DNA of 64,000 nt. It comes from Mesostigma viride. Its lineage: Eukaryota > Streptophyta > Mesostigmatophyceae > Mesostigmatales > Mesostigmataceae. Under the pieces are notes generated by a model that saw only the letters and a list, made by a program, of their open reading frames with translations, was not told the origin of the DNA and searched no databases. A program made the translations under genes and the position numbers. Shown here piece by piece: positions 5,869-63,327 of this stretch (positions within the stretch are counted from its first letter, which is position 1; every line of letters begins with the position of its first letter). The DNA lies in assembly GCA_009746045.1 (NCBI GenBank), contig RPFO01000076.1, positions 4,129,433-4,193,432 of the forward strand, in the 5' to 3' direction.

Positions 5869-5897
5869 CCCTGACTATGATGATCTTGGACCACGCC

Positions 5898-6242
5898 AGT
5901 TGAGTAACTCTAGAGCCCTAGGATCTGGCTCTAAGTTCCCCATGTCCGTCCGCACGCCTTCCGCTAGCGTCCGCTAAGCCGCCGGCTATAATCCGGCGGT
6001 CCGATGCGGTCGACCGGTCTAAGGGCGGCGCCTAGGGCCGGCGCCACCTAGGCCCCAGTCCGGGGCCTTATCCGGGTCGGTACGGACAGCTAGCTTGTCC
6101 CACGGTTACGGCTAACCGGATAGGGTTTGCTGGCTAAGACATAAACCAGTGGTGGGCCAGCTCCGACAGCAGTTCTCTGTGTTCACCTTATCCCAAGCTC
6201 AACGTGACCGACCGCCATAGCTGAGCCGGTCGGGCTTTAACT
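5898..6242 (+). repeat. Copia I 5' LTR
   Basis: 345 bp, same as 11707-12051 at an offset of 5809. It begins AGTTGAGTAACTC and ends TTTAACT. GC-rich with several short inverted repeats (for example GCCGCCGGCTATAATCCGGCGG). No TGG-type primer-binding start follows at 6243, so the priming mode is unclear. Confidence 0.93.
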
Positions 6243-6261
6243 TGTATTCATAAAAATCCCG

Positions 6262-8292
6262 ATGGCTTCCGGTACACGGAGCCGCACGGGCGAACACACA
6301 GATACGCCAAGTGGCGAGGCCGCAGGGTCCGTCCTGCCACGCTTTAGTGCGGACGAGGCCACGAGGTTGATGCAAACCCTCGTGGCGCAACCTGAACTGG
6401 CCAAGCAGTTCAAGCATCTGATGCTTGCTGCTGACGATGCACTAAATCGCGGCCCTCTCAAGCAAACGGAGGTGCCCGCTGATCTACCGGCCGACTATAC
6501 GGCGGACGACGCAGCAGATTTTCTAGCTGCTCTCAAGCGTCTGCGCGATGGACGCGCAGACAAAGATTCGGAGCTGATTGGCAAGTTCCGTGCAGTATTC
6601 TGCAGTACAACAAAGCACCCAAACATTGCCAATCTAGTTCGCATTGCGGACGACAACAAACAAACCTGGGAAGTTTTTTACAACGGTCTAGATGCCCACT
6701 TGTCGCGGTCTAAGGAAGAGGCCGACGAGCAAGCCTTCAACGACTTCGAGGGCTATGCAGTTAATAAGGCAAATTTGCCCGGGGCTGCACGTGATTTCCA
6801 GGTCTTCGTGCACAAGCACAAGCTGCTAGATACTCTCAAGCCCATTTTCCTGTGCAATCGATTTCTCAAGAAATGCGACCTGTCGTCGGATGTGCATCTG
6901 ACCATAGCGACGGAACTCAAAAAGAAGAGTGCCGTCAGTTTCGACGAGGGCATGCTGTATTTGATCTCATGCTTCAAGAGTGCGCAGTCCAAGCCGGCTG
7001 CCTCGGCTGCTCTGCCATCCCTGCGCAAGGTGGATGCCGGCGCGTCTTCTTCTTCAGGCGCAGAGGCTCCAATTACGCGGTCGGAGCTTACGGCCATCCT
7101 GAAAAAGGTCGTCGGCCACGGCAACAACGGGGGCCAGCGAGGGCGCAAGCGCGGGCATGGTGGCGACGCCAAGCAGGGTGATAATCCCCCGGCCAAGCGG
7201 CAGCAGGGGGCGTCTACTGACCGCAAGCAACGCTGTGAGCGCTGCTTCGGACGTCGCCATGTCCGGGATGACTGCCGAGTTCGCCCGGACCTGGAGCTCG
7301 AGGACAACCTTTGCCGCAAGTGCCACGACGTTCTGCGTGGTCACAGCGTGGAGGCGTGCAAGGCCAAGCGCATCGTCGTCCACGGCACACGCGAGGAGTG
7401 GGCAGAGCGACGGGCAGCACGAAAGTCAGGTGAGAGCACGCTCGATACCCCTTCTTTTGCTCAATGCGTCACGCTGAACCGGGCCGTCGTAGAGCCTGAC
7501 GTCGTTCCTAAAAGCAACGTGACTGCATCCTCTGTCTCATTCCGTGATGTGCTCACGCAATCCGTTGATGCTGCTCTGGCTCTGTCGCGCCAGGATCACG
7601 TGCTTCCTGAGCACGGGTCTACAATGCGTGACCTAAGCAATGTGGTGTCTTCTAGGTCGGGTGTGTACAACGCCGAGCGACCAAGCACTACTGCAGCACC
7701 CCAGCTAGATACTGGGGCGGTTGGGCCTATGAGGAATGTTGTGACAGTGCAAGAGAATGCTGGGCGGGCAGATGTTCTCGGTACACACCACCCTAGTGTG
7801 GATCTTCACATTGGCAAGGTGCTCACACGGGCGGCCTTTCGTGCAGCCTCTGAAGCTGCCCAGTTAGCCAATGTCACTACCCCAGTAGTCACCCCACCTG
7901 TTGAGAATCCTGACAATGCCACTGCACCTCAGGCTGTCACCCTGAAACTGTTAGCATACCAGATGCACCGTGCATACGGGCATGAGGCCCAAGCCGAGGT
8001 AGAGGGGGCACACATGTTGGGGGCACCTTTATACAACGAGCTGAAGAATGTGCGTGCTCAGTGTCCTGCCTGCATCAAGATCAGGAAGAAGTCGCGTAGG
8101 CGGCATGCCAAGACTCCACCCTTGGAGCGAGGGTACCTTGTGGGGGATGTCATGCACATGGAAGGGGGGGACACCTATTTCATAGTCAAGGATAGGTTCA
8201 GCAAGGCCACCTACATTGAGCCGCTGCCCACATGTTTGAGGCTGACCTGCACAGGGCTATCAAGATCAGCCTGGCTTTCTTTCATCCCGTAG
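6262..8292 (+). CDS. Copia I gag and integrase N-terminal part (gag-pol fusion)
   Basis: Starts at an ATG only 20 bases after the 5' LTR. Residues about 1-300 form a gag region with no strong motif, followed by a basic stretch. A CCHC knuckle (CERCFGRRHVRDDC, about aa 325-338) and a second cysteine/histidine cluster (CRKC..H..C, about aa 351-367) follow. Then a low-complexity linker with no protease domain, though LDTGA occurs once at 7705-7719. Next the integrase zinc domain (MHRAYGH..CPAC, about aa 567-605) and the first catalytic Asp (GDVMHM, about aa 630). Gag and pol are fused without a stop, unlike copia II and III. The frame is lost near 8230 in mid-integrase. Confidence 0.85.
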   Translation: MASGTRSRTGEHTDTPSGEAAGSVLPRFSADEATRLMQTLVAQPELAKQFKHLMLAADDALNRGPLKQTEVPADLPADYTADDAADFLAALKRLRDGRADKDSELIGKFRAVFCSTTKHPNIANLVRIADDNKQTWEVFYNGLDAHLSRSKEEADEQAFNDFEGYAVNKANLPGAARDFQVFVHKHKLLDTLKPIFLCNRFLKKCDLSSDVHLTIATELKKKSAVSFDEGMLYLISCFKSAQSKPAASAALPSLRKVDAGASSSSGAEAPITRSELTAILKKVVGHGNNGGQRGRKRGHGGDAKQGDNPPAKRQQGASTDRKQRCERCFGRRHVRDDCRVRPDLELEDNLCRKCHDVLRGHSVEACKAKRIVVHGTREEWAERRAARKSGESTLDTPSFAQCVTLNRAVVEPDVVPKSNVTASSVSFRDVLTQSVDAALALSRQDHVLPEHGSTMRDLSNVVSSRSGVYNAERPSTTAAPQLDTGAVGPMRNVVTVQENAGRADVLGTHHPSVDLHIGKVLTRAAFRAASEAAQLANVTTPVVTPPVENPDNATAPQAVTLKLLAYQMHRAYGHEAQAEVEGAHMLGAPLYNELKNVRAQCPACIKIRKKSRRRHAKTPPLERGYLVGDVMHMEGGDTYFIVKDRFSKATYIEPLPTCLRLTCTGLSRSAWLSFIP

Positions 8293-9044
8293 TGGAGCTC
8301 ATGCTAGACCAGCAGTTCCGCTGTGTGCAAGGTTTGCCGGGGATGGAGGCCGTGGTCATCGTGGGGCGTGAGGATCACGGCAATATGGGCATGATAGATC
8401 GCACTGTAAGCTATGTCAAGACTGTGGCAGCCAAGCGACAGGATAACCCACATGGCAAATCCTACGCGGTCAAGACGGCGTGGTGCAAGGAGCTCATGCA
8501 TGTGTGCAACCATAGGCACGTGCTTGATGTCAAGGGCTTTGGGCTAGTCACGCCTCGGGGGCTGTCAGCGGGCACCTACTCACCCGAGGTAGTAGAGGCA
8601 TACCAACAGCATCTACAGGATACCGCCGCCAAGCTGCGGCTCAAGGATGCCACGCTGCCTGATTTGTCTAGCGCTTTTGAGGTCGGGCAGTTGGTCATGT
8701 TCCACAAGGAGAGCTCGCCCAGCGGCAAACGGGGCACCATGCAGGGGCCTGGGGCCATCACAAAGTTAGACTGGCCGCTGCGGGTCATAGACATAGAGTG
8801 GAATGATCGGGTGTATAGGGTACCATGGGCATCGGTGGCAGGCTATAAGCAAGGGGATAGCATGGAGAGTGAGCTGGCAGCCAACAGGGCACTGGGGTGG
8901 GTAGTGAAGGATAATGCGCCTGTCGTAGCATCTGAGGTGGTACCCCACGGGTCGCTCCCAGGGGCAGACACAGCTACACCCCCCCCTCCCCTGGGCCCCA
9001 ATATGACCCCGTGGATGGGTGGGATGAGGATGGGGTGGGTTTGA
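8232..9044 (+). CDS. Copia I integrase core, C-terminal part (frame -1 to the preceding ORF)
   Basis: Continues the integrase after a frame change. The second catalytic Asp lies in MLDQQFRCV. The third position is Asp, not Glu (GMIDRTVSYVKT, codon 8397-8399), where copia II has GAVERSIREVKT. Downstream is an integrase C-terminal beta-rich region (VGQLVMFHKE, then YRVPWASV), similar to the YRLSWA segment of copia II. The ORF ends in a proline/glycine-rich linker, where a second frame change (9011-9044) leads to the protease-RT ORF. Either single-base loss or recoding could explain the breaks. Confidence 0.8.
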   Translation: MFEADLHRAIKISLAFFHPVVELMLDQQFRCVQGLPGMEAVVIVGREDHGNMGMIDRTVSYVKTVAAKRQDNPHGKSYAVKTAWCKELMHVCNHRHVLDVKGFGLVTPRGLSAGTYSPEVVEAYQQHLQDTAAKLRLKDATLPDLSSAFEVGQLVMFHKESSPSGKRGTMQGPGAITKLDWPLRVIDIEWNDRVYRVPWASVAGYKQGDSMESELAANRALGWVVKDNAPVVASEVVPHGSLPGADTATPPPPLGPNMTPWMGGMRMGWV

Positions 9045-11329
9045 CGGGACCTAGTGCACGTAGTGACTCACCTCCTGTGCTAGCCACGGATAATGTGGGA
9101 GGCCCGCCTAGCGTGGCCTCGCCGGAGGGTCAGGGTCCTGCCCATGCGCCTCGCCCACCTAGGGACCTGGCTTCAACGGTCACGGCCTTGTGGCGTGCTC
9201 AGGCGCTTAAAGCGAAAGCTGCATCAGGGGTGGCTCAGGTCAAAACTCTCTCACAGGGGGTCAGGCCGGTTAAGTCAGCCTTGTTTCCTACGTGTAGACC
9301 GTGGCAGCTGGTGGCTGTGGACACGCAAGCATCCGTGTCTATTATCTCTCGTCGGGCAGCCACCCTGTATCCAGTGCTAGAGTCGCCGTACAAATCGGTG
9401 ACCGACTTTGCAGGCACTTCGGCATATCAAGTTACCGGGATGGTGGTGCTGCCGGTGTTGGGCATTGACACGCCGTTTCACGTCGTGGATGGCTACGAGG
9501 ATGTGGCCTTGCTGGGCGAACCTTTCGTATCATACCCGGGGTTCTCAGTGTCCGCTGACTTGCTGTCAGTCGCGGGGGTGGGCAGCATCCCGCTTCGCGA
9601 GTACCACGCTCCATTGGGGGTGGTGGTCGGGCAGCCCGGCGTCGTGCGGCGCTTACCGATGGCGGCGTTTTCCACACCGCCGCTCGTCCAGTCCATCATT
9701 CAGCCTCAGGATTGGCACCCGCGCAGCTTCGGCCTCCACTCACACTCACTGGCGGCGGATAGCCCTGTGACGTGGGAGCAACTTGTCCTGGACTGTCAAG
9801 ATCCTCTCAAGTTTGCTTTGTGGCGCGACGCGTTCATTCGAGCCAAGGAGCAGTGGCGAGAGCGCGAGGTCTACCGAGGATTGGAGAGTGTGCCAGCCGG
9901 GGCCACGCGGTTGCGGTTGAAGTTCGTGCTCACCTACAAGCCGGACGAGACCAACTCTTCGGTGGTGTTCCGGGTAAGGCCCGTGGTCACGGAGACGAAG
10001 GGGTCCTCCCCGCTGGACGCCAAGGATCTTTATACCCCTGGGCTCAACCATGTTTCGCATCGGCTACTGACGGTCATCTACTTGGGCAAGCGGAACGCGG
10101 GCAAGGACTACGGGATGTGGTGCGGTGACTTTCAGCGGGCATTCCTCCACAGCGACGCTGGGGTCGCGCAGCAAACATGGCAAGGCACCCGCTACGTGGT
10201 GAAGGTCCCGGTGGTCTGGCAGGATGGCACCATTGGCAGCGAGTATATCGAGCTGTTGACAGGGGTGGAGGGGCTGCAGAGCTCTCCCATCATCTTCCGC
10301 ATTTCCGCGGAGGAGGTCTTGCAGAGCTTAGGGGCCACGTACCATCGCGCGGATCCTAACTTCTTTGTGGTCCCCACCGGCGTCCCTGGCGAGCCAGCCC
10401 TCTTCGTGTGGCATGGCGATGACTTCAAGCTGGTGGCACCTCGCACCTTTGCTACCCAGTTTCTTGCTGCAGTGGCGGCTAAGTTTCCCCTGGGCAGGGC
10501 GGTGGATCATGAGGAGGGTAAACCCGTGGTGTTTTGCGGCGTGCAGTCTACGTTGCAGCGGGATTCGCGTTCTGGCGAATGGGTCATGCACATGCAGGAT
10601 AGCCGCAACTATGTGGTTGACCTGCTGGCCGACCTCCCGTCCCCGCTGTTGGCAACCCATGGGCCCTCGGTTAAGGGCAAGCTCGGGTGGTTGGCGGACA
10701 CGGTGGCACCTGATTTGGCGGTGCTCGCTCGCCTGCCCGATGATGTGCTGGAAGGACTAGGGTCCATTCATGTTCGGCGGCAGCTGGCCATGACGCCCGG
10801 CATTGTGCTTCGTGGGCTCGATTGCTCACAGCCGGTGCACCTCGAGATAGTGACGGATGCTAATCTAGAGACGCGCACAGTCAGCCAAGTGCGGGCCCGC
10901 ATGGGGGCACTGTTCTTTATTAGCAATGAGGGACAGCCTGGCATGTTGTTAGATTGGTACTCGCGCTTGCACAGCCGCATTGCCACTAGCCCCAACACGG
11001 CTGAATGCCGGGGCATTGTTTCAGCTATCTCACATGGCATGTGGCTGCGGTACTTGCTGGGTTGGGTATTTGGCTCGTGTGGGTTCACTCTTCACTGGAC
11101 TAGCACGGTGCACACTGACTCACAAAGTTGTTTGGCCTTCCTTGACAATCCCTATGCGCGGTCACAGGACGTTGATTACCTCGTACTCGCTGAGGCGGCC
11201 TCCTGCGTCACGCGTCTCCAGCACATCGCGGATGAACTCAATCCCGCGGATGCACTCACCAAGGAGGCGCGGGAGGCTGCCCCGCAGTACGCAGTGTTGC
11301 GCAAGCGCATGACGATGCAACACCCGTGA
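9011..11329 (+). CDS. Copia I retropepsin-like domain, reverse transcriptase and RNase H
   Basis: About 770 codons. At about aa 100-190 is a retropepsin-like domain: VDTQASVSII (Asp codon 9320-9322), a flap-like region, and ALLGEPFV (from 9506); the usual DTG/DSG glycine is Gln. RT follows with DFQRAFLHSD (first catalytic Asp), GVEGLQSSPIIF and the active site WHGDDFKLV (HGDD at 10412-10423) in place of YVDD. RNase H shows TDAN, WYSRLHSR, AECRGIV, VHTDSQSCLAF and a C-terminal LNPADALTKE, typical of copia. Protease placement after integrase is unusual. The ORF is intact to its stop. Confidence 0.88.
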   Translation: MDGWDEDGVGLTGPSARSDSPPVLATDNVGGPPSVASPEGQGPAHAPRPPRDLASTVTALWRAQALKAKAASGVAQVKTLSQGVRPVKSALFPTCRPWQLVAVDTQASVSIISRRAATLYPVLESPYKSVTDFAGTSAYQVTGMVVLPVLGIDTPFHVVDGYEDVALLGEPFVSYPGFSVSADLLSVAGVGSIPLREYHAPLGVVVGQPGVVRRLPMAAFSTPPLVQSIIQPQDWHPRSFGLHSHSLAADSPVTWEQLVLDCQDPLKFALWRDAFIRAKEQWREREVYRGLESVPAGATRLRLKFVLTYKPDETNSSVVFRVRPVVTETKGSSPLDAKDLYTPGLNHVSHRLLTVIYLGKRNAGKDYGMWCGDFQRAFLHSDAGVAQQTWQGTRYVVKVPVVWQDGTIGSEYIELLTGVEGLQSSPIIFRISAEEVLQSLGATYHRADPNFFVVPTGVPGEPALFVWHGDDFKLVAPRTFATQFLAAVAAKFPLGRAVDHEEGKPVVFCGVQSTLQRDSRSGEWVMHMQDSRNYVVDLLADLPSPLLATHGPSVKGKLGWLADTVAPDLAVLARLPDDVLEGLGSIHVRRQLAMTPGIVLRGLDCSQPVHLEIVTDANLETRTVSQVRARMGALFFISNEGQPGMLLDWYSRLHSRIATSPNTAECRGIVSAISHGMWLRYLLGWVFGSCGFTLHWTSTVHTDSQSCLAFLDNPYARSQDVDYLVLAEAASCVTRLQHIADELNPADALTKEAREAAPQYAVLRKRMTMQHP

Positions 11330-11706
11330 GCCACACAGGGTTACGGCTCGGGCGCTTTATGAATACAGCCATAACTCACCCTGTGTTGCTAGCATTCACG
11401 AATATCATGGTGGTAGTTTTTTTGCTTGTCCTGACCATACCCTAGCCACGTTGGACGGTGCCTTGGGCCCGTCGGCGGGTCACTGGTCCTAATAAATGGG
11501 TCACCTTTTGTCTGGTGGCATAGTTGTTTTTTTCTCGATACTTATTACATCACTATTCATGTGTGATCACAAGGGCGCGGGTCGATACCGTGGTGATTTT
11601 GACGGCCTTGAGGCCCCCTTGAGTTCCCTACCTTAGAGGGTTTTGTATGGTCTGCATTTGATGTAATTATTTTGATAATTAATCAAAGAACAAAAGAGTA
11701 TGTCGG
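11330..11706 (+). other. Copia I 3' untranslated region with probable polypurine tract
   Basis: No ORF. Just before the 3' LTR the sequence is purine-rich (AAAGAACAAAAGAG, then TATGTCGG), in the position expected for a polypurine tract. Confidence 0.5.
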
Positions 11707-12051
11707 AGTTGAGTAACTCTAGAGCCCTAGGATCTGGCTCTAAGTTCCCCATGTCCGTCCGCACGCCTTCCGCTAGCGTCCGCTAAGCCGCCGGCTATAA
11801 TCCGGCGGTCCGATGCGGTCGACCGGTCTAAGGGCGGCGCCTAGGGCCGGCGCCACCTAGGCCCCAGTCCGGGGCCTTATCCGGGTCGGTACGGACAGCT
11901 AGCTTGTCCCACGGTTACGGCTAACCGGATAGGGTTTGCTGGCTAAGACATAAACCAGTGGTGGGCCAGCTCCGACAGCAGTTCTCTGTGTTCACCTTAT
12001 CCCAAGCTCAACGTGACCGACCGCCATAGCTGAGCCGGTCGGGCTTTAACT
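11707..12051 (+). repeat. Copia I 3' LTR
   Basis: Partner of 5898-6242, with no difference noticed. It is followed at 12052-12056 by the ACGCC target duplication. Confidence 0.93.
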
Positions 12052-12056
12052 ACGCC

Positions 12057-14279
12057 CCCATCGGGACGGCCCACGCCCCCATCGGGGCAGGTGCGCGGAC
12101 TATCGTTCAATGGTACATGTTGTTGAGCGAGCCTTCGACCCGAGCGTAGCGCCCGAATATCTATGCCGTCATCCGAGGGAAGCTCAGTCATTAACTCGCG
12201 GTGCGCCATCGTTTTCAAAGTGCTACTCGTACCGTGTGATTCTGGATGTGCTAGTCTATTAGGTGTTTAGGTCCAGCACTCGAGGCCGGCTGCCGGGGTC
12301 ACGGATCACCACACCCCAACTACCCACCCCTTACACAAGTCCACACACACCTTTATAGCACTTAGTACTATAATAGTAGTCCTACTAGAACCACTCTTGA
12401 TTCCTGATCAACTTGTACGAGTATTATTAGTAATCCTAGACCTACTCTTAGTACGTGGTCACCTTACACACGGCTAACTGCAGGTCTATTGTTTTGATTT
12501 ATATAATGTAATAAAGTTTAGGACTCGGAAGAGGATTGCATCTAAATCAAAATGCAGTATAACTTATGCAGGTATAGGTCAAGCCACAACCATTGTCCCA
12601 ACTTATGGCCTAATGTCCTTGCCCATCGGCATATGACATGAGAACCAATATTTTGAGCCCATCGGCTTATGACATGACATTATGACATGACAACCATCAC
12701 GTTGAGCCCATCGGCTTAAGACATGACAACCATCACGTTGAGCCCATCGGCTTAAGACATGACAACCATTACATTGAGCCCATCGGCTTAAGACATGACA
12801 ACCATTACATTGAGCCCATCGGCTTAAGACATAACAATCATTATATTAAGCCCATCGGCTCGGAGACATGACAACCATTACTTTGAGCCTATCGGCTTAT
12901 GATAGGAAAGGAAGGAAAGACAATGCAACAAGCCACGACACGGTTTGGAACACAATATAAAAAACGTTTTTATGCGACTCAAACCAATCGGTTTGTTACG
13001 AATAAAGGTGTCCCTCCGACCCATCGGTCAGATTCTCACCTGCATGGGACAAAGAGGTCGGCCCAGGACAAAAAGAAAAGAAAAGATATGCGCAGCAGGA
13101 ATACAATTACTAATCCCGCAATGCAAGGAAGGGCAGAAAACAACGAAATTTCCGTCACGGCACCACCATCGTGGGCCGTTAGGAACTGCACTACATTGCC
13201 GCTCCATAATGCATGGATACACGGAATAAAAGGAAAACGACGATGCAGGATTGAAGTCTGCCGCCCCGACGGAATTGTCAGTGCGTTGCTGTTGGTTAGC
13301 TCTCGCTTGTTCTTCACGCTCCTTGCTGGACTGCAACGTGAGTGCGCAGGCACAACAGCAGCAAGGTGCAACACAACAACAGCAACGAAAACGAAAAGAA
13401 AACTAACCGACCATCGCCGGATCTAGCTAATCTAATTCGACCATCGTCGACTTTAATATTGCAATATTCGTTAGTCAAATTGCGGCAATTCCGACCATCG
13501 CCGGAATGCCTGAACAATATTGCATGAACCTAACTACTCAGGCACGAAATGCAAATAGAAAAACAGACCTCCGATTCCAGTGTAACGTGCCAAACCCATC
13601 GGCCAGGCACGTTGGGAAAGATCGTTTCTATCTACGGGACCATCGCCCCGGTTTGTTGCCTGCCTGAGTAGGAAGGGGGATCACTATTCTATGGGCTACT
13701 TGCTGTCATCACAGCGTAGGCCCAGAGGCATTATATTAATTACCTTCTTGTATTCTTGCAATTGCAGTTGTACAAGGATATGTGTTGGACATGATTGTAT
13801 TAAAAGGAATAGATTCGTAGCTCAGATTAACTGAGGTGGGTGAGTCGGCGGATTGACGAACGACTGTCTTGTCCATCGTCCTCGCACACCTTTATGCCAA
13901 GCAGTGCCACTAGGTCAGCACTGCTGTCCCGACCCTTGTGGCTCGGAACAGGCATGCGAATATTCCACGCTTAATTTCCATTACTGTAGTGGGCCGAACT
14001 ACGGGTCGAACATAGGGCTAGTCGACCTCTAACCATGTCCGTGGTAACCATCGTTACGTTATGCCATCGGACACACATCCATCGATATATATCCCAATGT
14101 CACCAATATTACTCTAGATATCAACTGTCGGCACCCTCGTATACACAAGCAGAGGTGTGCCGGAAGGTATGGACTTCAAACCACCTTAGGTATCTATCTC
14201 TTTTTGCACGTATCTTTTTATACCATATTTCTTTTGCCAAACTCTCTCGTGCTCACTAGGTTCGGCCCTAGTCGGCACG
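12057..14279. other. Gene-free region rich in CCATCGG-type motifs
   Basis: No convincing gene. The word CCATCG recurs about 20 times (CCCATCGGC, ACCATCGCCGG, ACCATCGTCG and similar), mainly on this strand, from the copia I flank to about 14080. A patch around 13575-13625 (CAGTGTAACG..AACCCATCGG..GAAAGATC) resembles 20520-20555 on the other side of gypsy B, so parts may be old LTR or leader sequence. Clustered short repeats also resemble the subterminal repeats of CACTA elements. Neither is proven. Confidence 0.4.
12613..12900 (+). repeat. 36-bp tandem repeat array
   Basis: About seven to eight imperfect units with consensus start GAGCCCATCGGCTTAAGACA followed by TGACAACCAT. Most units are 36 bp; two near the edges are longer or degenerate. 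Each carries one CCCATCGGC word. Confidence 0.88.
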
Positions 14280-26672: not shown

Positions 26673-28235
26673 AATCGGTTTTCTCTGAATATAGTTTAAT
26701 TAACGCATGCGGGAAAGATAAGGCCGCCATGCCTTGGCCTGGATGTGGAAGGCTGCCTGCGACATGGGCTGACTAATTCGATCTGTACAAAGGGTTTCCT
26801 GCTCGCCCGAATTTTCCTTGGATGACCCGGTTGTTTGTAAGGGTCGGTGGCGGTCCGAGAGAATTAATTGTAGGTTTTATACGACTTCACTTGCAAAGAT
26901 TCGTGTTTGCTTGCACCAGCTGAGGTTAGGTGGGGACCTGTAGGGTCGGCTGGTTGCTTACCGAATCTTTGGCTGATTTGGGTTATTTAGTGAGTCGTGA
27001 TTAATTATTGTATAGTGGATTCGGACCGGCCCAAGGGGTCGATGGGCGAGTTTTATGTTTGTCAGTCTTGGGAACCTTGTACAACTACCTGTACGGTTAA
27101 CGCACTAGCCTGGGGGTGCGTGGCCACGCTGTTTGTAGTGGCGTTTTCAGCACTGTTCAGGCCGGTGTGTGACGCATGCCGGTGTTAATTAATTTAGGAT
27201 GATGTCAGCTTGTGTGTCGGCGGGCCATGCCTTAAGCAAGCTAGGCAGGCAATGATCCGCAATTGTTTCTTTCACAATGGCGGCAATGGCCGCCTGTGCA
27301 AAATTGCACATTCTAGCGCGGGTTGCATCTGTCTTCTAGCCGAGGTAGATGGTGGCACAACCGCTAAGTTGTTCGACCAAGCATAGTATCGTTGGTCGTG
27401 CAACGGAAAGAAAATTTAAATTTACCCCCATGTCGTTTTCCCCGGCTGCGGGTCTTTTTGACATGGGCGAAGGATGGGGCGCTACTCCGGCGGTTGGGCA
27501 GCTTCGGCGGAGCTGTTTATAAGTTTCTAAAACAGCTCTAGTGTCACATCGCAGGCTTGCCACCTTGTGATGGTGCGTGGGACGTGACCTGGACTCAAAA
27601 GGTCCTGAACCAGGTTCCTGTCAGCAACGGCCTGTTTTTTTCATAAATTATTTTTTGTGGCGGCAGGTCAGTTGTCCAGCTGCCCCTGCCGAGGAGGGGT
27701 GGTTGGGGACAATAGGAGCCGCGCGAGAGTTGCGCTCCGAAGCTAGAAATTTCCCTATTGCGAGACTCGAGTTGGGGAGGGCGTCTCAGGGAGGCGAGGC
27801 TACGCCAGACCTTTGTCGTTCCTTTTGATCGTCTCAGCACCTGCTGCGCGGCTCAGTCTATTATGGTCTCGTAAAACCTCTTTCCTTTTTGGACGGTTCC
27901 GGAATTGCGAAATGCTGGCTCTTTTTGAGGGCTTGCTTTTGGGGTGGTCACCGGCTTGTGTTGCATTGAACCAGCGGGCCCCTGCGGGGGTTAATATAGC
28001 CTAGCGCGGGCTGAGTCGCCATTTAAGATGTTGCGACACGCTCTTTCGCGCACGGTGGTCATGAGTCTAATCGGCGCAATGGGGTTGGCGCCAGGGGGGG
28101 GTAATTGGGTGGAGGCTTCTTGCTTCCGCGTGCAGATTGAGAAACCTTAAGGCCACTGTTAACTGCTGCATTTGTGGCAGGGCTCCACTTATTGTATTCA
28201 ATCAAATGCTGGTCTTCTTGGGAGCTGAGTGATCT
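26673..28235 (+). repeat. V-W-X segment, first copy, with an 830-bp insertion
   Basis: V (26673-26875) recurs at 28236-28443; W (26876-27275) recurs at 30733-31137; X (28104-28235) recurs at 31146-31270. Between W and X an extra stretch (27276-28103) is present only here. The order indicates a tandem segmental duplication later broken by insertions. A 63-codon ORF in W (26997-27188) is duplicated at 30855-31046 but has no recognisable domain and no independent sign of being coding. Confidence 0.8.
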
Positions 28236-28443
28236 TAATCGGTTTTCTCTGAATATAGTTTAATTAACGCATGCGGGAAAGATAAGGCCGCCATGCCTTG
28301 GCCTGGATGTGGAAGGCTGCCTGCGACATGGGCTGACTAATTCGATCTGTACAAAGGGTTTCCTGCTCGCCCGAATTTTCCTTGGATGACCCGGTTGTTT
28401 ATAAGGGTCGGTGGCTGTTAATTAGTGGTACGAGAGAATTAAT
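28236..28443 (+). repeat. V segment, second copy
   Basis: Same sequence as 26673-26875 (CGGTTTTCTCTGAATATAGT onward), joined on its right to the inverted-repeat right arm instead of W. Confidence 0.85.
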
Positions 28444-32651: not shown

Positions 32652-33854
32652 TCAGGCATGCGAACTGTCAGCAGTATGAAAGAGATAGGCATAAGATTCA
32701 TCATCCGGTAGTTCACCATAAGGGGTTACACCAATAGTGGTAGGAACTAGAGTAGTATTGAGAACATCTAAGTCCTCGAAAAAGGAGTAATCTGCGCGAC
32801 GGGAGAGGGCATCAGGTACTATGTTATCTACACCTTTAAAAGGGGAAAACTGTGCTAAAAACTCCATCCAGCGCGCTTGACGAGGGGTAAGGTTGGGTTG
32901 GGAGAGCAGATGGGTAAGGAGACGATAGTCCGTTTGTATAACGAATCTATAAGGATCTATCTCACAGGGTTCATTCAGACAAACATCAAATTGGGCACCT
33001 TTAAGAAAGTGCTGCCACGCGTGGCGACAATACACCACAGCTAAGAGTTCCTGCTGGTGTACAGGATAGTTACGCTCCGCGGGGAGCATTGTCCTAGAGA
33101 TATACTCAATTGGCTGTAAGCCCTGACCCTGATCCTGGAGAAGGACGCCCCCTATAGCTACCTTACTAGCGTCTGTAGCTACCACAAAGGGTTTGGTAGT
33201 ATCGGGTAGGATGAGTACGGGAGGAGAGAGGAGTAGGGATTTTAAACACTGAAAAGCAGACTGACACTCACTACTCCAGATAAAGGGGATATCTTTCTTT
33301 AATAAATGATTGATAGGGGCTGCTATAGTTGCGAAACGAGGGATAAAACGCCTATAGTAAGAGGCAGCAATCCCTAAGAAACTACGTACACTTTTAACGT
33401 CGGTAGGGGTAGGCCAATCCTGAATTGACTTAGTTTTATCCGGGTCGGTAGCGACACCGGCATCCGACAAAACATGTCCTAAAAATGGTACACTCCTACC
33501 AGAACGAACTTTAGCACGGCGAGCCCACAAGGAATTTTCAGACATTATTCTAAGACTTTCTTCATCACGTAGGTGCGTTTCAAAATCAGGGGAGTAAATA
33601 AGGATGTCATCTGAGTAAGCCTGAGCACAAGAACGATCGTGCTCAGCTAAAGAAACAGAGGAGAAGGAAGGATCCTTTAAATCAGAGGACACTTGGGGAA
33701 GGTGAGAATTACCCATAACAGGTCTAAGCACTTCATTCATCAACATTTGAAAAGAGGCAGGAGAATTACAGAGTCCCATAGCCGCTACTCTAAACTGATA
33801 ATGACCAAAAGGGGTAGCAAAGGCGGTTTTATGACAATCCTCGGGCGCTATACG
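32652..33854 (-). pseudogene. Gypsy C reverse transcriptase (C-terminal part) and RNase H
   Basis: Continues the RT cut by copia II: EDCHKTAFATPFGHYQFRVA, then AYSDDILIYS, where the active-site box is YSDD rather than YLDD. Next VRSFLGIAASYYRRFIPRFA and RNase H (VATDASKVAIGGVLL, QTDYRLLTHLL, DALSRRADYSF). HTDHR-type residues have become QTDYR. The ORF stops at 32652 before the integrase frame. The N-terminal half of RT is at 42023-42472. Confidence 0.85.
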
Positions 33855-34496
33855 AGTTAGCATATTGGTGATGCAATATGCTAAGCATATCATACTTGAA
33901 GTGGCCTTTCCAACGCCGTGCTAAACGCCTCATTTGGACAAGGAACTTGAGAGTTATCAAGTCCCGAAGTAATGCCGCCGGACGCTACAGCAGTACCAGG
34001 ACTAAGGACACGTGAGGGACAGGGCACGTGGCAGTGTTGGGTGAACCATCACAAGTTACGTGTCACAGGACCGACTGTCACTAGGAGGTACTGTGGTCAA
34101 TATTGGTTGATGGTACCAAGAATGTCACAGGACTTCAGGACTGGCAGTCCTGCAGGCCTGGGATGGACGGGTACTTGTCATGACGGATAAATCCAGAGCG
34201 TTACTGTCATTCATGGAAGGACAGACGTCCTGGATTGATGCAACCAAGGAAATTGACAGTGGCGGACCTGCCAAGGCGTGCAAGGCCTGGCAGCAATGGT
34301 GAGACCTAGAAAGGCTCGGACACAGCAGTGGCCAAGCGTCTTTTCCCAACACCGTCCGTGGGTACTGCCGCCTCAGGCTAGTGACCACAGGGTAGTGAGG
34401 CAACTGTGGTAAAGGTTAAAAGCCGCTGGTTGAAACCATGGCTCCATTCATCACATCTTGGGAAGACCAGAAACTCACTGATCCGCGTTCATCTAA
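33855..34496 (+). repeat. Copia II 5' LTR
   Basis: Starts AGTTAGCATATTGG, ends CGTTCATCTAA; repeated at 41381-42022 (offset 7526). It includes a short palindrome-like start (GCATATTGGTGATGCAATATGC). Short ORFs present in both LTRs are not coding. Confidence 0.93.
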
Positions 34497-35551: not shown

Positions 35552-36879
35552 ATAATGCCTAGGAGGGCAAGCCGGGGTGCGGCGACATTCGAGGAGCAAC
35601 GGGAGCGAACGGCAGAGGAGGACATCGCCAGAGAGGAAGGGGAGGCGATGGAGGAGAGGGGCGTGGAGGCGCCAGCTGGGCAACCTATCCCAGAGATGGA
35701 CCCCAGAGCCGGGAGAACACACAAGCGGTGGCGTGATGGGCAAGCTGAGGCGGAGAAAGTCAAGCGTGCCAGGCGACCTACGGATGCAGTGGTGCTCACA
35801 ACGCCTGGTGAGGAGGACGCCATCGTCACCCCAGGTGTGCGTGCTGCAAAGCAAGCTGCTGTTCACGATAGGGTGTCTGGTATGTTGCCCGAGCGTTTGG
35901 AGGCTAGGATTGACCCTCCCCAGGCACCACCAGTGCGTGTGGGGAGTGTGTTGCCTGGCACCCGTCCATTTTCTGATGCTGTGACAGTCATGAATGGGCA
36001 GAAAGCGCTCAACCCTCCCTGAAGCAAGACAACCTGGATAAATGGCTTGATGACATGAAGCTAGTTGTGGGCTCTGTCGCAGCAGGTGTGGATATTGTCA
36101 GGGTGTTTCACTCTTCCACCGCAAACAAGGGGTCGTCTGAAAGGGTCAATGACATGGCTAGGCATGCTCTGAAAGAGGGGCACACTTGGCTGCAGTTCCT
36201 AGATGACATCAAGGAGGAGTTTTCTGACAGGGTTCACAATCTCACCATGGAAAAGAAGAGAGAATTTGATGAGTTTGAGATCAAGGGTGAGGTGGCTGCT
36301 GAGCTGGCCAGGTTTGAGTTGATCGTGGAGGCAGGCAAGAAGCAGGGCTTCAGTGTGACAGTCAGGGCAGCAGCAGACCACTTCTTTGATAAGATGGGCT
36401 TGTCAGAGGAAGGTAGGGCTACTGCTAGGCAGCTCTGTGATCTCACTGATGGCACCTGGGGGGCTCTGAAGCGTGTGATACTAAACTTCAGGACCCGGGT
36501 CCCTACCTGCAAGGGTATCAGTTCTCAGGGAGGGTCAGCGTCTCAGGCTAGCCAGGGCAAGAACCGTACCCCATCTGGGACACGGTATGGTAGCAGGAGA
36601 AGGAAGCAGGCCCAGAAGGAGCAGAACCAGGGTGGTGGAGGAGGTCAGCAGGGGAACCAGAATCAGGGGAACCAGTCTGGCAACCGTAACAGCCATCAGC
36701 AGGGTAAGGGTGGTGGCCAGGGGCAGAATAACAATCAGGCCTCAGGCAACCAGAACAAGCAGGACAGCAAGGCCCCAGGGGGAGGGTCTGGCAAGAGCAA
36801 GTGTTTTGCTTGTGGCAAGGAAGGTCACTGGAAGAGGGATTGCCCAAACAAGAAGAAGGGGCAGTCTGATCAGAAGTGA
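35552..36879 (+). CDS. Copia II gag with CCHC knuckle, ending in UGA
   Basis: Likely start at ATG 35552 (MPRRASRGAATFEEQ). A frame change near 36000-36030 is required to reach the core (LDKWLDDMKLVVGSV..). Core helices (KREFDEFEIKGEV) are comparable to copia I gag. A long Gln/Gly/Asn-rich tail precedes the knuckle CFACGKEGHWKRDC. The stop is TGA at 36877-36879; the next codons CTA GTG continue open in the same frame as pol, pointing to readthrough. Gag forms the particle; the knuckle binds RNA. Confidence 0.8.
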
Positions 36880-36883
36880 CTAG
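36877..36883 (+). promoter_or_regulatory. Candidate stop-codon readthrough site UGA-CUAG between gag and pol
   Basis: TGACTAG in frame: AAG TGA CTA GTG. Pol continues in the same frame for over 700 codons. The UGA-CUA(G) context is a known efficient readthrough context in viruses and some metazoan genes. Copia III has TGA CTT at the same place (63325-63327). Confidence 0.65.
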
Positions 36884-39078
36884 TGAAGCAGTCCCGTGTA
36901 CATAGTGAGACACCCTGTGGGGACACAGCTTCACATGTAAATAAATCTGGGCAGGGTGCCACCTCTGATCAGCACCAGGGGTGTACTGATGTTCTCATTC
37001 CACAAGATTGCATGCATGCTGCAGCACAACAATCCCCTCAACTGTCAACAGGTGGAGGGTCCCCAGACAGGGTTGGCTCTGGGAGCCTAGATGCTCTGCT
37101 GGGAGGGTCTGCTGGGTCCTCTGGATCCAAGATGCAGAAGGTGGATGTTGCGTCCTCACACGCAGGGCCCGTCCAGGCGTCTTCCCAGGTGCGTAATCTG
37201 GCTAGGCAACTGAGCTACACGGATGCTGGACGCAGGCTGCACAATATCTTTGGTCACACAGCCATGGCTGAGATGTTTGGTTGGAAGATTGGAGATGAGC
37301 CACTGAGGGAAGCATGCAGGGCTGCAGCTGAGCAATGTACTTGTAAGGAGAATGCTGCCAAGAAGCCAAGGTCCCATGCTAGGGAGCCTGCCAGGGAGAA
37401 GGGGGACATCCAGGTAGACGTCCAGCATATCAGGGGCTTATACATTTTGGTGGCAGTGGACAGATTTAGCAGGTACAGGCTGCTCCAGATTCTGCCAGAT
37501 ATGAAGGGGAATACCCTGCTGCTGGGCTTGCAGACTCTCTTACCAGGCTTTGGGGTGTACAAGACAGTACAGGCTGATATTCAGTTTGAGTGCCTACTGT
37601 CACAGCAGGAGCAACTGCCATGCAAGCTGCTGGTCACGCCCAGGGAGAGCCATGGACAGCAAGGTGCTGTGGAGAGATCCATCAGGGAGGTCAAGACCGT
37701 AGTGCTGGCAGAACCTAAGGTGCCACTGGTAGCATCTGCTTTGGAGAGGGCAGTGTGGACCAGGCAGGTGGAAGAACAGTTGAACCTCAGAATAAACTAC
37801 TATTATGACGGGGTGGCTGTCAATCCTGTAGCACTGCAGTTTGGGATGCTAGCCCAGGAAGTGGTCCAGGCTTGCTTGAGGAAAGCAGACAGGGTGTTTG
37901 CTCAGTTGAGACGCAAGGATAGGGGCTGGAATGTGCTGAGGCCTCAGGTGGGGCTGAAGGTCAGAATGTGGAAGGAGCCATCAATGCAGGGCAAGAGGGG
38001 CAAGTGGCAGAACGGGGTGGTGACCTGTGTGGAAGATGCCAATCGTTCCTGCCTTGTGGCCTTGGAGAGTAATCCCAGGCATGTTTACAGGTTGAGCTGG
38101 GCCAACGTCAAGGAACGCAAGCCACATGCAATCTGGCCTGCAGACGGGCCTGGACCCCAGTGTTGGCTGGAGGGCCAGGTTAAGGACCAGGTAGTTGATG
38201 TGCCTGTCACTGACGTGGGAGGTGGCTATCCCTCTGATGATGATGAGGTGCAGGAGGCAACTGCATCACCTGTGGTGGAGCCAACGGGGGCTGGGCCTGC
38301 ACCAGGGTCCAAGAGGCCACTCATGGCAGACATTGTCCGGTCGCTCATGTTCAACAAGCACAAGGATCCCAAGGTATCTAAGTTGACTGAATGGGGTTCT
38401 TGCTGGGCTGCTACCCTAGAAGTGGATACTAACTCAGAGGTGTCTATCATCAGGGTGGAGGATGCTCAGGGCCTGAAGGTGAATAAGGCTGGCTGCAGGG
38501 CAGTGAGTGACTTTACGGGCACTGTAACAATGAAGATCCTAGGGGAAGTGACTGTGCCTATCCTGGGTGTCCCCACTGCGTTCTGTGTGGTGGAAGGGTA
38601 CCAGGGGCCTGCCATTTTGGGCCAGAATTTCTTGTGCATGCCAGGAGTGACTCTGTCAGCAGATGAGCTTGCACTAGAAGGTCATGGCAGTTTGCCCCTC
38701 CAGAGATATCACTACTCCAAGGGTCTAGCTGTGGCAGTCAAGGCTGTGAAGGGGCAGCAGAGTGTGGGGCCTGAAGGCAAGGAGCCCATTGCTGAGGACT
38801 TGTTGATCATCCCAACCACCCTAGATCCACGGGACTTGGGGGTGCACAAGTACCAGATTGCTGGTCACAGTCCTATTTCCTGGCACCAGTTGGTAGAGTT
38901 GATGCAAAGCCCCAAGATGGCTAAGGCATGGATTCTAGGGTTTGTCTCCAGTGGGCATGACTGGATAGTGTCTAACTGTGCTGAGCCTGTGGATGAGTTG
39001 CCCAGGGAGCATCAGTTGCTAAGGCTCTTGTTTGTGCTCAAGCTGAAGGAGATAGACGGGTGCAGGTGCCACATGTGA
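36883..39078 (+). CDS. Copia II pol part 1: integrase, retropepsin-like domain, start of RT
   Basis: After a gag-pol linker comes the integrase zinc domain (LHNIFGHTAMAEMFGW, ending in CTC, a CxC not CxxC). The core has D in VDVQHIRG, D in VQADIQFECL and E in QQGAVERSIREVKT. The C-terminal region has VRMWKEPS and YRLSWANVKE. Then the retropepsin-like domain: LEVDTNSEVSIIR (Asp codon 38425-38427), FTGT, TVPILGVPTAFCVVEGY, AILGQNFL (38611-38634). RT begins (DLGVHKY, LVELMQSPKM) and the frame breaks at about 39055, where one base appears missing relative to copia III. Confidence 0.88.
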   Translation: MKQSRVHSETPCGDTASHVNKSGQGATSDQHQGCTDVLIPQDCMHAAAQQSPQLSTGGGSPDRVGSGSLDALLGGSAGSSGSKMQKVDVASSHAGPVQASSQVRNLARQLSYTDAGRRLHNIFGHTAMAEMFGWKIGDEPLREACRAAAEQCTCKENAAKKPRSHAREPAREKGDIQVDVQHIRGLYILVAVDRFSRYRLLQILPDMKGNTLLLGLQTLLPGFGVYKTVQADIQFECLLSQQEQLPCKLLVTPRESHGQQGAVERSIREVKTVVLAEPKVPLVASALERAVWTRQVEEQLNLRINYYYDGVAVNPVALQFGMLAQEVVQACLRKADRVFAQLRRKDRGWNVLRPQVGLKVRMWKEPSMQGKRGKWQNGVVTCVEDANRSCLVALESNPRHVYRLSWANVKERKPHAIWPADGPGPQCWLEGQVKDQVVDVPVTDVGGGYPSDDDEVQEATASPVVEPTGAGPAPGSKRPLMADIVRSLMFNKHKDPKVSKLTEWGSCWAATLEVDTNSEVSIIRVEDAQGLKVNKAGCRAVSDFTGTVTMKILGEVTVPILGVPTAFCVVEGYQGPAILGQNFLCMPGVTLSADELALEGHGSLPLQRYHYSKGLAVAVKAVKGQQSVGPEGKEPIAEDLLIIPTTLDPRDLGVHKYQIAGHSPISWHQLVELMQSPKMAKAWILGFVSSGHDWIVSNCAEPVDELPREHQLLRLLFVLKLKEIDGCRCHM

Positions 39079-40417
39079 GGCCAGTTGTGACTGAGTACCA
39101 TGGCACGGGGGAGCTGACAGATGAGGAGTTGTATACGCCTGGGATGCTGCATGATACCTGGAGGATTGTTCTGTGTATATATCTGTCTTTCCTGGTCAAG
39201 GGCATTGCGTACAGCTCTGTGCTGATTGATTTCAAGAGGGCTTTTCTAAGGGTGATGTGGAGCAGGCCAAGGAGACGTGGCGTGATATCCCTCCCTTCTT
39301 TGTAACAGTGCCCAAGGTGTGGAGAGCAGAGATCAAGTCAAAATATCTCAGAATACTCAAGGGTTTGGAGGGTCTCAGGTCCAGCCCTATCATCTGGAGA
39401 AAGAGCCTGGAAAAGTTTCTGAAAACTCACTGTGGCTTTACTGTGTCTCCAGTTGATCCTTGCTTGTTCCAGAGTACTCATGAAGGGTTGCCTGTGTTTG
39501 CATCTCTGCATGGAGATGACCTGCACCTTCTAGGGCCTCCTGAGTGGGTGGATTCAGTACTGTCCAAGATCCAGAAGAGGTTTGAGTTAGGAAAGGTCCA
39601 GCACATGAAGCAGGATGAGCCCATGGTGTTTTGTGGAATGCAGGCCACGCTGATCAAGAGGGCAGGTACTTGGTTTATCAAGATGGAGGGTGGCAACAAC
39701 TATCCTCAGCAGATCATTGATGCCCTCCAGCAGCCCATTACCCAGGCCAGGTGTGCCACAATCAGGGGAATGTTGGCTTGGCTAGCTAGCATTTGTGCCC
39801 CAGATTTGTTGGTGCTGAGTAGGCTCACAGATGCTCAGCTGGTTGAGGTAGGGGCAGAGCAGGTGGTTGAGTCTGTCAGGAGCTCACCTCCACTCATACT
39901 GGCAGCTGTGGACTTGTACAAACCACTCAACATGGTGCTTTTTGTGGACAGTTCCATGGACAGCAGGAAGGTGACGGATGTCAGGGGTAGGGCAGCAGCA
40001 CTCATTACACTACAACAGGAGCACACTTCTCTGGTCAGCTGGTACAGTAGGTTACAGAACAGGGTGACGCCCAGCAGTGACATTGCTGAGTGCAGGGCAA
40101 TATGTGAGGGGCTACACACTGCTCTTTACCTCAGGGAGTTATTCTACCAGCTCTGTCAGGTAGCTTCCTGTAGCTTGCAGCTGCACACACTGGTCAAGAC
40201 AGACAGCATGGGCATGGTGCAGTTTGTGCACAGACAGCTCGCCAGGAGCAGGGATCTGGATTATTTGTTGCTGAAGGAGATGTCTTACCTTGCTCATCTT
40301 GAACATGTGCCTGGTGTTGACAACCCAGCAGACGCCCTCACCAAGCTGGAGAGCAAGGCTGAGCTACAATACCCTGTGCTCAAAGGGCTCATGTACCCCT
40401 TTTCTGGTGGGACTTGA
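39060..40417 (+). CDS. Copia II pol part 2: reverse transcriptase and RNase H
   Basis: RT resumes with VRPVVTEYHGTGEL and DFKRAFL (first catalytic Asp). A further one-base loss near 39250 shifts frame. Then GLEGLRSSPIIWRKSLEK, the active site LHGDDLHLL (HGDD 39509-39520) and MVFCGMQATL. RNase H: FVDSSMDSRKV, WYSRLQNRVTPSSDIAECRAI, KTDSMGMVQFVH, NPADALTK. RT copies the element RNA; RNase H removes it. Normal end at 40415-40417. Confidence 0.88.
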
Positions 40418-41380
40418 AGTCCAGCCTTTGCCAGTTGGTGGCTGACCAGTGCTGTTGTCCCCAGGGGGGAGGGCAACAGGTAGCCTACCTGTCACCAAGC
40501 AGGTAGAAGGCTCAACAGGAGCAAGCTCTTCCTGTAAAGGATTAGCACAGTGGGATGCCTTTGGCCTCGGGCAGTTAGGCCATGACAGGGCAGGCCATGT
40601 TGAGAGTTCTTCCAGGTTGTTTGTATATATCTCTCTTGTTTAGTTTTCTTTAGCTGTGAATAAGTGACAACCTTGGATATTATGGTGTTGTAACCTGACA
40701 GTTGGGCCTTGCTGGTGCAGGCTGGTCCACTGGGAACACTCAACATTGGTTTTGGTGGATATTCTATAATAAAACATAATCATGTTGTATGCCAATCTCT
40801 CTTGTTGTCTGTCATGTGACCAGGTTAAGTTTAACCTGGGGTTCTGGGGTAGGGTTCGATTCCCTAGTTGAGCCACAGCCTGGTATGTATGACTCCTGGG
40901 CTTTAACACCCAGTGATGACATGGGCTCCCCATCAAGCAGTGGCACAGTGGTGTTGAAGTGGTTTCCATTGGTGAACATTTGGATGGATGATGCCTGGAA
41001 CGCTCGGGGCGGGCGCCATGAAACGGGCGCCAGTGATAACTGGGAAGACCAGGAACTCACTGTAATACGTTTCCTGTAGTCAGGGCCTCTCATTCAGATA
41101 TCCAGGATATGTTGCCTAAGGAATATTCAATATCCTCCTTTAAGCCCAAGCCAAGGTACAGTTGCAAAAGAAAGGGTTGGGGATGACCTGCAGGTCAAGT
41201 TAATGATCAGATGGCAGGGTTGAACCATAGATCCCTAAGAAGGATACCATTAAGGTGGCAAAAGGGGTGCTCATGAGGCTTATTATAAGTCCAGGGTAAC
41301 CAGGTGTCCATTTCACAAGGCAGCAAGGAATGGGTTGGTCATGGTGTGAAGCTTGCAGCTCCAAAACAAGAAAGGGTTGG
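40418..41380 (+). other. Copia II 3' untranslated region with polypurine tract
   Basis: No domain-bearing ORF. Ends in AAAACAAGAAAGGGTTGG immediately before the 3' LTR, a good polypurine tract. An inverted pair GGCGGGCGCCATG..CGGGCGCCAG lies near 41010-41030 and is conserved in copia III near 59130. Confidence 0.65.
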
Positions 41381-42022
41381 AGTTAGCATATTGGTGATGC
41401 AATATGCTAAGCATATCATACTTGAAGTGGCCTTTCCAACGCCGTGCTAAACGCCTCATTTGGACAAGGAACTTGAGAGTTATCAAGTCCCGAAGTAATG
41501 CCGCCGGACGCTACAGCAGTACCAGGACTAAGGACACGTGAGGGACAGGGCACGTGGCAGTGTTGGGTGAACCATCACACGTTACGTGTCACAGGACCGA
41601 CTGTCACTAGGAGGTACTGTGGTCAATATTGGTTGATGGTACCAAGAATGTCACAGGACTTCAGGACTGGCAGTCCTGCAGGCCTGGGATGGACGGGTAC
41701 TTGTCATGACGGATAAATCCAGAGCGTTACTGTCATTCATGGAAGGACAGACGTCCTGGATTGATGCAACCAAGGAAATTGACAGTGGCGGACCTGCCAA
41801 GGCGTGCAAGGCCTGGCAGCAATGGTGAGACCTAGAAAGGCTCGGACACAGCAGTGGCCAAGCGTCTTTTCCCAACACCGTCCGTGGGTACTGCCGCCTC
41901 AGGCTAGTGACCACAGGGTAGTGAGGCAACTGTGGTAAAGGTTAAAAGCCGCTGGTTGAAACCATGGCTCCATTCATCACATCTTGGGAAGACCAGAAAC
42001 TCACTGATCCGCGTTCATCTAA
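41381..42022 (+). repeat. Copia II 3' LTR
   Basis: Partner of 33855-34496; one difference seen (AAGTTACG versus ACGTTACG). Followed by TATACG. Confidence 0.93.
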
Positions 42023-44587: not shown

Positions 44588-45249
44588 CAGAAATTTTCAT
44601 TTAATTCCTTGGTCGTCAAGACTGATTGAGACAATTGATAGACAGTTTATTCATTGCATATTTAGGTTACGGACTGCCACCGTTTCACCGCCAAAGCCAT
44701 GGTGCGGTTCCCGGGTGGGGACCATAGCATCCATAGCCACACTGGGCTCGGACTGCAAGGTAAGTGCAACGTAGGTGTGTCACTTCCTTATCAAGGCACA
44801 TTGGGGCAGCGGTGCACGTTCTAGAATATTCTGCACAAGTTGCCAGCTGTCGATTATACAATTGACGATTAGGAGAACGCCAGATGTCAAGCAACTAACA
44901 CGGCATACAATGCATCTAGAACTGGATTCAGTCATACGAAATATCCCACACGGAATATTCGGCCGAGGATAGTACCGTCGGCACCTATAAGGTACGCAAA
45001 GTATTGTGCCGGAATTACAACTTCGGCACTACATAACTTTTGCTATACTGCACTGTATTCAGTGCTATAAGTTGTGCCGGAAAGCTCACGGCGGGCCCTA
45101 CCAAGCCTATTTAATTAGCGGCCGGAAAGACGGCAGGCGGGTGCGATTGTTAGGGACGCAACCCTAATACCTCCGTTTACAACATGATGGCCAGACACTA
45201 CAAATGTAAACATGCAGTTGGGCACACAGGGTGAAATTCACCTCTGACA
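44588..45249 (-). repeat. Unit U, inverted right copy (662 bp)
   Basis: Inverse of 42596-43257. Its outer end forms the right terminus of the composite element, next to ATTGT. Confidence 0.9.
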
Positions 45250-45866
45250 ATTGTATCCGCTGTGTTCACATCTATATCCACACTATTATTAGTGATAGGT
45301 ATCTCCTGTACTTCTAACTGAAGGAACATACATAATAAATATCCATATTCCTTTAATTCAGATCGCAATTCATCATTGGACATTAATACTTCAGGTATAG
45401 GTCTTACAGGAGGATCAACAGGTGTAGGAGGAGTAATATCTACCAAAGATAAATTTTCCACTCTATAATGACGTTCCGGTACCCAGTAAGAGCTATCTGG
45501 AAACCAGATGACCATGGTATCATAATTAATAGTAATCTTATTATCCTGGTGCCAATCTAATCCTAGTAATACATCAGCGGTAGTGATAGGGCCTATAGTG
45601 GCCGTCAGGTTGACAGTACGTCCTTGTATGACCAGGGGAAGGGACACCGTACCCGGGGAGTGACTGGTGCGACCGTCAGCATAATTGACAGTGACAGGCT
45701 TGGTGTGAGGGATAGGGACTAGTCCTAAACGCCTAACTAGGGCCTCGCTCACAAAGGAGCTAGCCGCACCGCTATACACTAACACAGAGACATTCAAAAG
45801 TTCATCAGCATGCAAGAAGGGGTCTACAACAGTGTGGGGAACGGTTAAGCCACCATTCAAAAACAT
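45250..45866 (-). pseudogene. Gypsy C protease region with mutated active site
   Basis: Minus strand: FLNGGLTVPHTVVDPF, then SVLVYSGAASSF. The catalytic Asp of the DSGA motif is Tyr (YSGA), a one-base change, so the protease would be inactive. The rest is well kept (VRRLGL, NYADGRTSHSPG, ADVLLGLDWHQD, VIWFPDSSYWVPERHY). The reading is cut by the composite element and resumes in RT at 42472. More A/T-rich in codon third positions than gypsy B and D. Confidence 0.85.
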
Positions 45867-46140
45867 AAGAGGACGGACACGTAGTGGTAGGGATGATTCA
45901 GCTCCTACAGAAGTTATAAAAACAGGCAGGCAAAAATTATTATCTGGGGTACTATCTAAGGACCTGTCCAGGTTACCCCCGGCTGACAGGCCTACTGTTC
46001 CCCCTGGCCCACATCCATTGGGACTAACCCCGAAGAAGTCCCTGGCGAAAAAGCCACTGCTGGAGGGTCACGAGGGAGCGAAGAGGGTGCAGGAGCCTGA
46101 TTATCATAGGGGAACCCTGAGGGTCCTGTCTGCACAGCAT

Positions 46141-62442: not shown

Positions 62443-63324
62443 ACTCTAGCTGCTAGCACCACTGTTTTTACTTCACGTATAGATCTCTCTACAGCTCCCT
62501 GCTGCCCATGGCACTAGGGACCACTACCAACTTACAAGGAAGCTGGTCAGCCAGCTTGATCAAGCAGTCAAACTGCAAGTCAGCTTGCACCTTGGTGTAC
62601 ACCCCAAAGCCTGGCAACAAAGACTGGAGACCCATCAACAGCTGATGCTCCTGCATTCCAGGAAGAATGGTCAGCAACCTATATCTGCTAAACCTATCCA
62701 CCCCACCAACAGATACATGCCCCTGATGTGTTGGATGTCCACCTGGATATCCCCCGCTCTCTAGCAGGTTCTCTGGCATGGGACTGTGGGAGGCGAACAG
62801 CATTCTCCTGACAGACACAATTCTGAGCAGCTGCACTGCAGGCCTCTAGCAAAGGCTCCTTGCCAATCTTCCAAGCAAACATCTCTGCCTGCTTAGAGTG
62901 ACCAAAGATATGGTGTAGAGTGTTTCCAGCCTGAGCATAGCTCAACCCCCTGTCAGCCTGGCTGCACAGAGAGGAACGTGACAAAGACTGTGTGCTTGGG
63001 ATAGCACGACCCACCTGCTGTTCTCTTGCTCCAGGGACCTCCTCCAAGGTAGCTCGGCTCCCAGAGCCAGCCCCGTTCCCACAGAAGCTGCAGGTCCTTC
63101 CAGTCTGGCGCTTGACTCCCAGAGTCAACCCCAACAACTGGAGACCCTGCACCTGCCACAGGCACAGGGAATTCCACTGCTGCAGCAGCGTTATTGCAAT
63201 CATTGAGTGGAAGCACCTCATCATTCCCAACCCCTTGCTGCTGCACAAGAGGACACCCATTACTATGTACAACTGTTCGTCCCACTAGGGGTGATTGACT
63301 ATTTACAGGGGACAACATCTCAAG
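62443..63324 (-). pseudogene. Copia III gag-pol linker and integrase N-terminal part (frameshifted)
   Basis: Immediately after the in-frame UGA: LEMLSPVNSQSPL.., a linker matching copia II around NDEVLPLNDC. A frame change near 63000 leads to the zinc domain (LHHIFGHSKQAEMFAWKIG..CVC). Another near 62700 leads to VDRFSRYRLLTILPG and VQADLQFDCL (second Asp). A last one near 62500 lies before GQQGAVERSI, whose Glu codon survives (complement of 62487-62489). Confidence 0.8.
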
Positions 63325-63327
63325 TCA
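63325..63327 (-). promoter_or_regulatory. In-frame UGA between gag and pol of copia III (readthrough candidate)
   Basis: Minus strand: AAG CCA TGA CTT GAG ATG in the frame of the knuckle, followed by open pol-linker sequence. Equivalent to TGA CTA at 36877 in copia II. Confidence 0.6.

Follow-up and report, generated by a model that had tools for sequence, protein, structure and literature searches.

Why should copia-type long terminal repeat (LTR) elements carry a protease-like domain downstream of their integrase? The question is raised by three such elements, copia I, II and III, in a 64-kb stretch of DNA from Mesostigma viride (contig RPFO01000076.1, positions 4,129,433 to 4,193,432; hereafter the window), each of which has a retropepsin-like domain of ~105 residues between integrase and reverse transcriptase (RT). 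The literature is cited here from extracts of the papers concerned, and according to those of PMC2774666 every known Ty1/copia element, like the Gmr1 elements discussed below, has its integrase downstream of the protease. We consider it moderately probable that the elements belong to a clade with the order gag-integrase (INT)-protease (PR)-RT-RNase H (RH), in which an ILG-type retropepsin of replacement origin precedes RT and acts as a putative cleaving PR-RT. For the retropepsin fold and the INT-PR-RT order taken by themselves the case is much stronger, and we regard both as very probable.

A protein search returned three further relatives carrying the domain (P0010, P0014 and P0015), giving a set of six members on which the counts below are based; P0013, which starts inside the domain, P0016, which starts after it, and P0011, which ends before it, were left out. 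In copia I the domain occupies 9296-9640 (+), with DTQA at 9320-9331 and LLG at 9509-9517; in copia II it occupies 38398-38721 (+), with DTNS at 38425-38436 and ILG at 38614-38622; and in copia III 61444-61767 (-), with DTNS at 61729-61740 and ILG at 61546-61554. An earlier note, made from the sequence alone, had placed the motif segments of all three copies at these sites, after integrase and before RT, and this is where they were located. The same position was found in P0010, so that the domain lies between integrase and RT in all four elements in which the upstream part can be seen. The same note had held that copia II and III have no protease between the gag knuckle and the integrase. None was detected there, and because the gag-integrase interval contained neither a conserved domain nor a detectable protease, the order is gag-INT-PR-RT-RH and not the PR-INT-RT-RH of Ty1/copia elements; the canonical slot appears to hold only a fast-changing spacer. 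Domain and RT share one open frame in five of the six members (I, III, P0010, P0014 and P0015), and in P0010, from an ENA contig, a single open frame (1214 aa) contains the entire order. No copia element with the INT-PR-RT order appeared among the papers listed in searches of an open-access library.

That the domain is a retropepsin is supported by both structure prediction and profile comparison, as the earlier note had anticipated. A single-chain AlphaFold2 model of the copia II sequence, built from the alignment of the six members (pLDDT 70), is predicted to form a retropepsin beta-barrel with a flap hairpin and an ILG-helix. Among the matches listed for this model (50 of 314 PDB rows), all 50 were retropepsins and Ddi proteases, the Ddi1/Ddi2-type retropepsins being the best structural matches, level with the viral ones. 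When a profile of the six members was compared with PDB sequences, nine of 11 weak matches were proteases, compared with none of three for a reversed-profile control. The only Pfam protease families matched, below cut-off, were PF13975 and PF13650 of clan AA, both of which also match the gypsy proteases of the window.

A number of results weigh against this interpretation. The PDB profile matches were singly weak (best E 0.069), and they spanned the part from flap to ILG and missed the Asp-Thr motif. No member reached the Pfam cut-off of 28.2 bits, the best being a piece of P0010 at 19.4 bits, and a hand-made consensus scored 19.6 bits. These matches depended on how the pieces were trimmed, none being obtained for the longer copia I and II pieces, any copia III piece, P0014, P0015 or a second consensus of 108 aa, and the same Pfam library gave an unrelated match at E 0.013. 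Alignment by hhalign with the three gypsy proteases of the window was in the correct register and fell short of significance: in 19 of the 300 column shuffles the score was as high. Searches of PDB by phmmer with single copia III and copia I segments, or with profiles A2 and A3, gave no matches, and NCBIfam gave a single weak and irrelevant one. For the structural model, VIA Z values were below 8, a range flagged by the tool, Foldseek E-values were above 0.001, residues 87-108 had pLDDT below 50, and an earlier AlphaFold2 model from four rows and a longer construct had reached only pLDDT 34.7. The whole order is found in an unbroken single frame in P0010 only. Finally, Gly is absent from the third position of the active-site motif in all six members, where Gln, Asn, Met or Lys is found instead, and this triad Gly is described as highly conserved (PMC7072860).

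The remainder of the D-T/S-G-A motif is kept: the Asp and the Thr are invariant in the six members and the fourth residue is always Ala or Ser. The replacement of Gly by Gln or Asn that the earlier note reported for copia I-III was thus confirmed. The feline foamy virus (FFV) protease, with Gln, is active, and because FFV likewise has Gln at this position, loss of the Gly does not by itself prove inactivity. In the extracts of PMC7072860, FFV is the only one of the proteases studied to show this change. Identity among the members is 33-53% once the close II/III pair is set aside. When copia II is compared with copia III, the ratio of nonsynonymous to synonymous substitution rates (dN/dS) was 0.204 for the domain, which indicates that it is under purifying selection; the corresponding values were 0.176 for the pre-RT region, 0.108 for RT-RH, 0.097 for the integrase C-terminus and 0.540 for the spacer.

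The mechanism that we propose is modelled on the foamy viruses, in which the protease stays joined to RT (PMC8402755). The retropepsin domain would remain attached to RT as PR-RT, would dimerise, as in foamy virus, once two Pol chains come together, and would then cut Gag-Pol by means of the Asp of each subunit, despite the Gln, Asn, Met or Lys in third place. We put the prediction of an active, foamy-virus-like PR-RT at a little better than even. The strongest competing explanation, although rather unlikely, is a pseudo-protease that has kept the fold and lost catalysis, serving as a dimerisation or scaffold module ahead of RT, with Gag-Pol either uncut or cut by a protease of the host or of another element. 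The loss of the Gly from every member and the variable residue in its place would fit such a module, as would the joining of domain and RT in one frame and the invariance of the Thr, which in retropepsins forms the inter-subunit 'fireman's grip' (PMC7072860). However, it would not readily explain why the catalytic Asp is invariant in members so divergent, nor is another protease detected within the elements, and the reported foamy virus protease with Gln for Gly also speaks against it.

Whether the protease had moved, or had been lost and replaced, was left undecided in the earlier note, and here the motif that follows the flap is informative. In the extracts of PMC2774666, Ty1/copia proteases have LLS with very few exceptions and other proteases have ILG, whereas all six members have ILG, LLG or LIG. 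Because the motif is of the ILG type and published copia proteases have LLS, replacement is favoured over relocation, and on sequence grounds a captured non-copia retropepsin is the most likely source; this contrast with copia proteases is drawn from the published motif. The original copia protease would then have been superseded by this domain, instead of having itself been shifted to a new place. The opposing view, that the same copia protease was simply relocated within pol, or that an integrase was inserted upstream of it, its source being unchanged in either case, is a shade less likely again than a pseudo-protease. Against it stand the motifs and the fact that the sole Pfam protease matches are to families that also fit the gypsy proteases. 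A third option, absent from the earlier note, is that the integrase may be the part that changed, as its origin could not be assigned: its affinity to copia or to gypsy was indistinct, and the two copia I integrase pieces had no rve match.

It is very improbable that a true protease, too diverged to be detected, sits in the gag-integrase interval and that what precedes RT is some unrelated beta-barrel. An isolated LDTGA in copia I (7705) and a VDSGS in copia III (63129, minus) do lie inside this interval, which is otherwise the spacer described above. Barely credible is an artefact in which mis-assembly or nested insertion placed a gypsy protease between integrase and RT, since, although gypsy elements with proteases are present in the window and copia II and III are frame-broken, the same order recurs in four elements with domains 33-72% identical, P0010 carries it in one frame (by itself a strong argument against an artefact), identical LTRs and a perfect target site duplication (TSD) flank the domain-bearing copia I, and the hhalign similarity to the gypsy proteases is below significance.

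We regard the elements as a divergent clade of Ty1/copia type that is probably resident in Mesostigma viride. P0013 is a Mesostigma viride gene model that represents a near-identical copy of copia I (99% identity over 87% of the searched part), and P0011 is another, with the copia III integrase; no relatives were found in the viral-contig or genome-contig collections searched. The protein search also returned a canonical copia fragment, P0012, to which RT was closer than to gypsy RT in all six members and RNase H in five, with a tie in copia III. The RT is of the RVT_2 type (PF07727), with 48.0 bits for P0016 against a cut-off of 31.6, sub-threshold matches in P0002, P0008 and P0010 and none in P0005, P0014 and P0015. 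Like Ty1/copia elements (Pseudoviridae), the clade has a copia-type RT, with integrase upstream of it, and copia I a 5-bp TSD; unlike them, it has the protease after the integrase, ILG for LLS and a triad without Gly, together with an HGDD motif in RT and, in copia I, LTRs that begin AGTT and end AACT. The HGDD box is found in all eight sequences (I, II, III, P0010 and P0013-P0016), and P0012 has YVDD.

Other systems resemble the clade in part. Foamy virus integrase follows RT. The foamy PR-RT also differs in its motif, spumaviral proteases having a PWL-like sequence where others have ILG (PMC2774666), and its RT is not of the copia type. Because of the position of the integrase before the domain and the ILG-type motif here, the parallel is functional and not a family link. 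In the Ty3/gypsy elements Gmr1 (Goodwin and Poulter 2002) the pol order likewise departs from the one that holds for their own superfamily (PMC2774666), but they are gypsy elements with a copia-like integrase position, and the gypsy-type RT that marks them is not that of the present elements, with their copia-type RT and INT-PR-RT-RH. Ddi1/Ddi2 and the clan AA families Asp_protease_2 and gag-asp_proteas share the fold and the register of Asp and ILG, but keep D-S/T-G (PMC7072860) and belong to host or gypsy proteins. A more specific history, which we offer only tentatively, is that a separate copia-related lineage, having given up the copia protease, acquired a non-copia retropepsin next to RT and with it a new pol order; the predicted active D-T-x-A/S site (x = Q, N, M or K) of this retropepsin, shared by the whole family, in a permanent PR-RT would constitute a second, independent foamy-virus strategy.

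Copia I (5898-12051) is a complete and recent insertion, as its 345-bp LTRs (5898-6242 and 11707-12051, +) are identical and the 5-bp TSD ACGCC stands just before (5893-5897) and again after it (12052-12056). Its LTR termini are unlike the TG..CA typical of most LTR elements (PMC12440569), and a tandem array with a 36-bp unit (12595-12932) lies directly downstream. Its reading is spread over three frames: 6241-8292 (+), with gag (a Cys/His-rich part recognised by eye, without a Pfam match), the non-conserved spacer, the integrase zinc domain and the start of the integrase core; 8220-9044 (+), with the remaining core and C-terminal part; and 8936-11329 (+), with the retropepsin-like domain, RT and RNase H. 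At 8229-8546 (+) Asp (IDR) stands where the others have the catalytic Glu of their integrase (VER).

Copia II has LTRs of 643 bp at 33854-34496 and 41380-42022 (+; 99.8% identity), gag with a CCHC knuckle at 35977-36879 (+), a pol frame at 36880-39078 (+) that covers spacer, integrase, retropepsin-like domain and pre-RT region, and RT and RNase H in a different frame at 39230-40417 (+). Copia III, which extends past the right end of the window, has the integrase C-terminal part, the domain, RT and RNase H at 59749-62445 (-), and the integrase zinc domain region at 62694-63284 (-) in another frame; both elements are broken by these frame changes. An in-frame TGA separates gag knuckle and pol in copia II (36877-36879, +) and copia III (63325-63327, -), with CTA or CTT directly 3' of it, an arrangement that looks as if pol came from stop-codon read-through. 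RNA folding 3' of the copia II gag stop was not unusual (z -1.04), and Rfam gave no matches across the window. The gypsy protease at 45201-46067 (-) has Tyr at the position of the catalytic Asp (VYSGA), and the other two have DSGA (52490, +) and DTGA (16325, -). Frames 26700-26822 and 28264-28386 had identical domain-profile scores, which suggests a duplicated stretch.

If confirmed, the order found here would give a large class of mobile elements, and a well-studied one, a new layout, in a clade that breaks both the rule that integrase lies downstream of protease and the taxonomic divide between LLS and ILG, as these are set out in PMC2774666. A survey of plant elements dropped those with an unexpected domain order as likely mispredicted, according to the extracts of PMC6317226, so that other studies may likewise have discarded lineages of this kind. 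A family with a triad that lacks Gly would also provide natural variants with which to test a long-held requirement of aspartic proteases.
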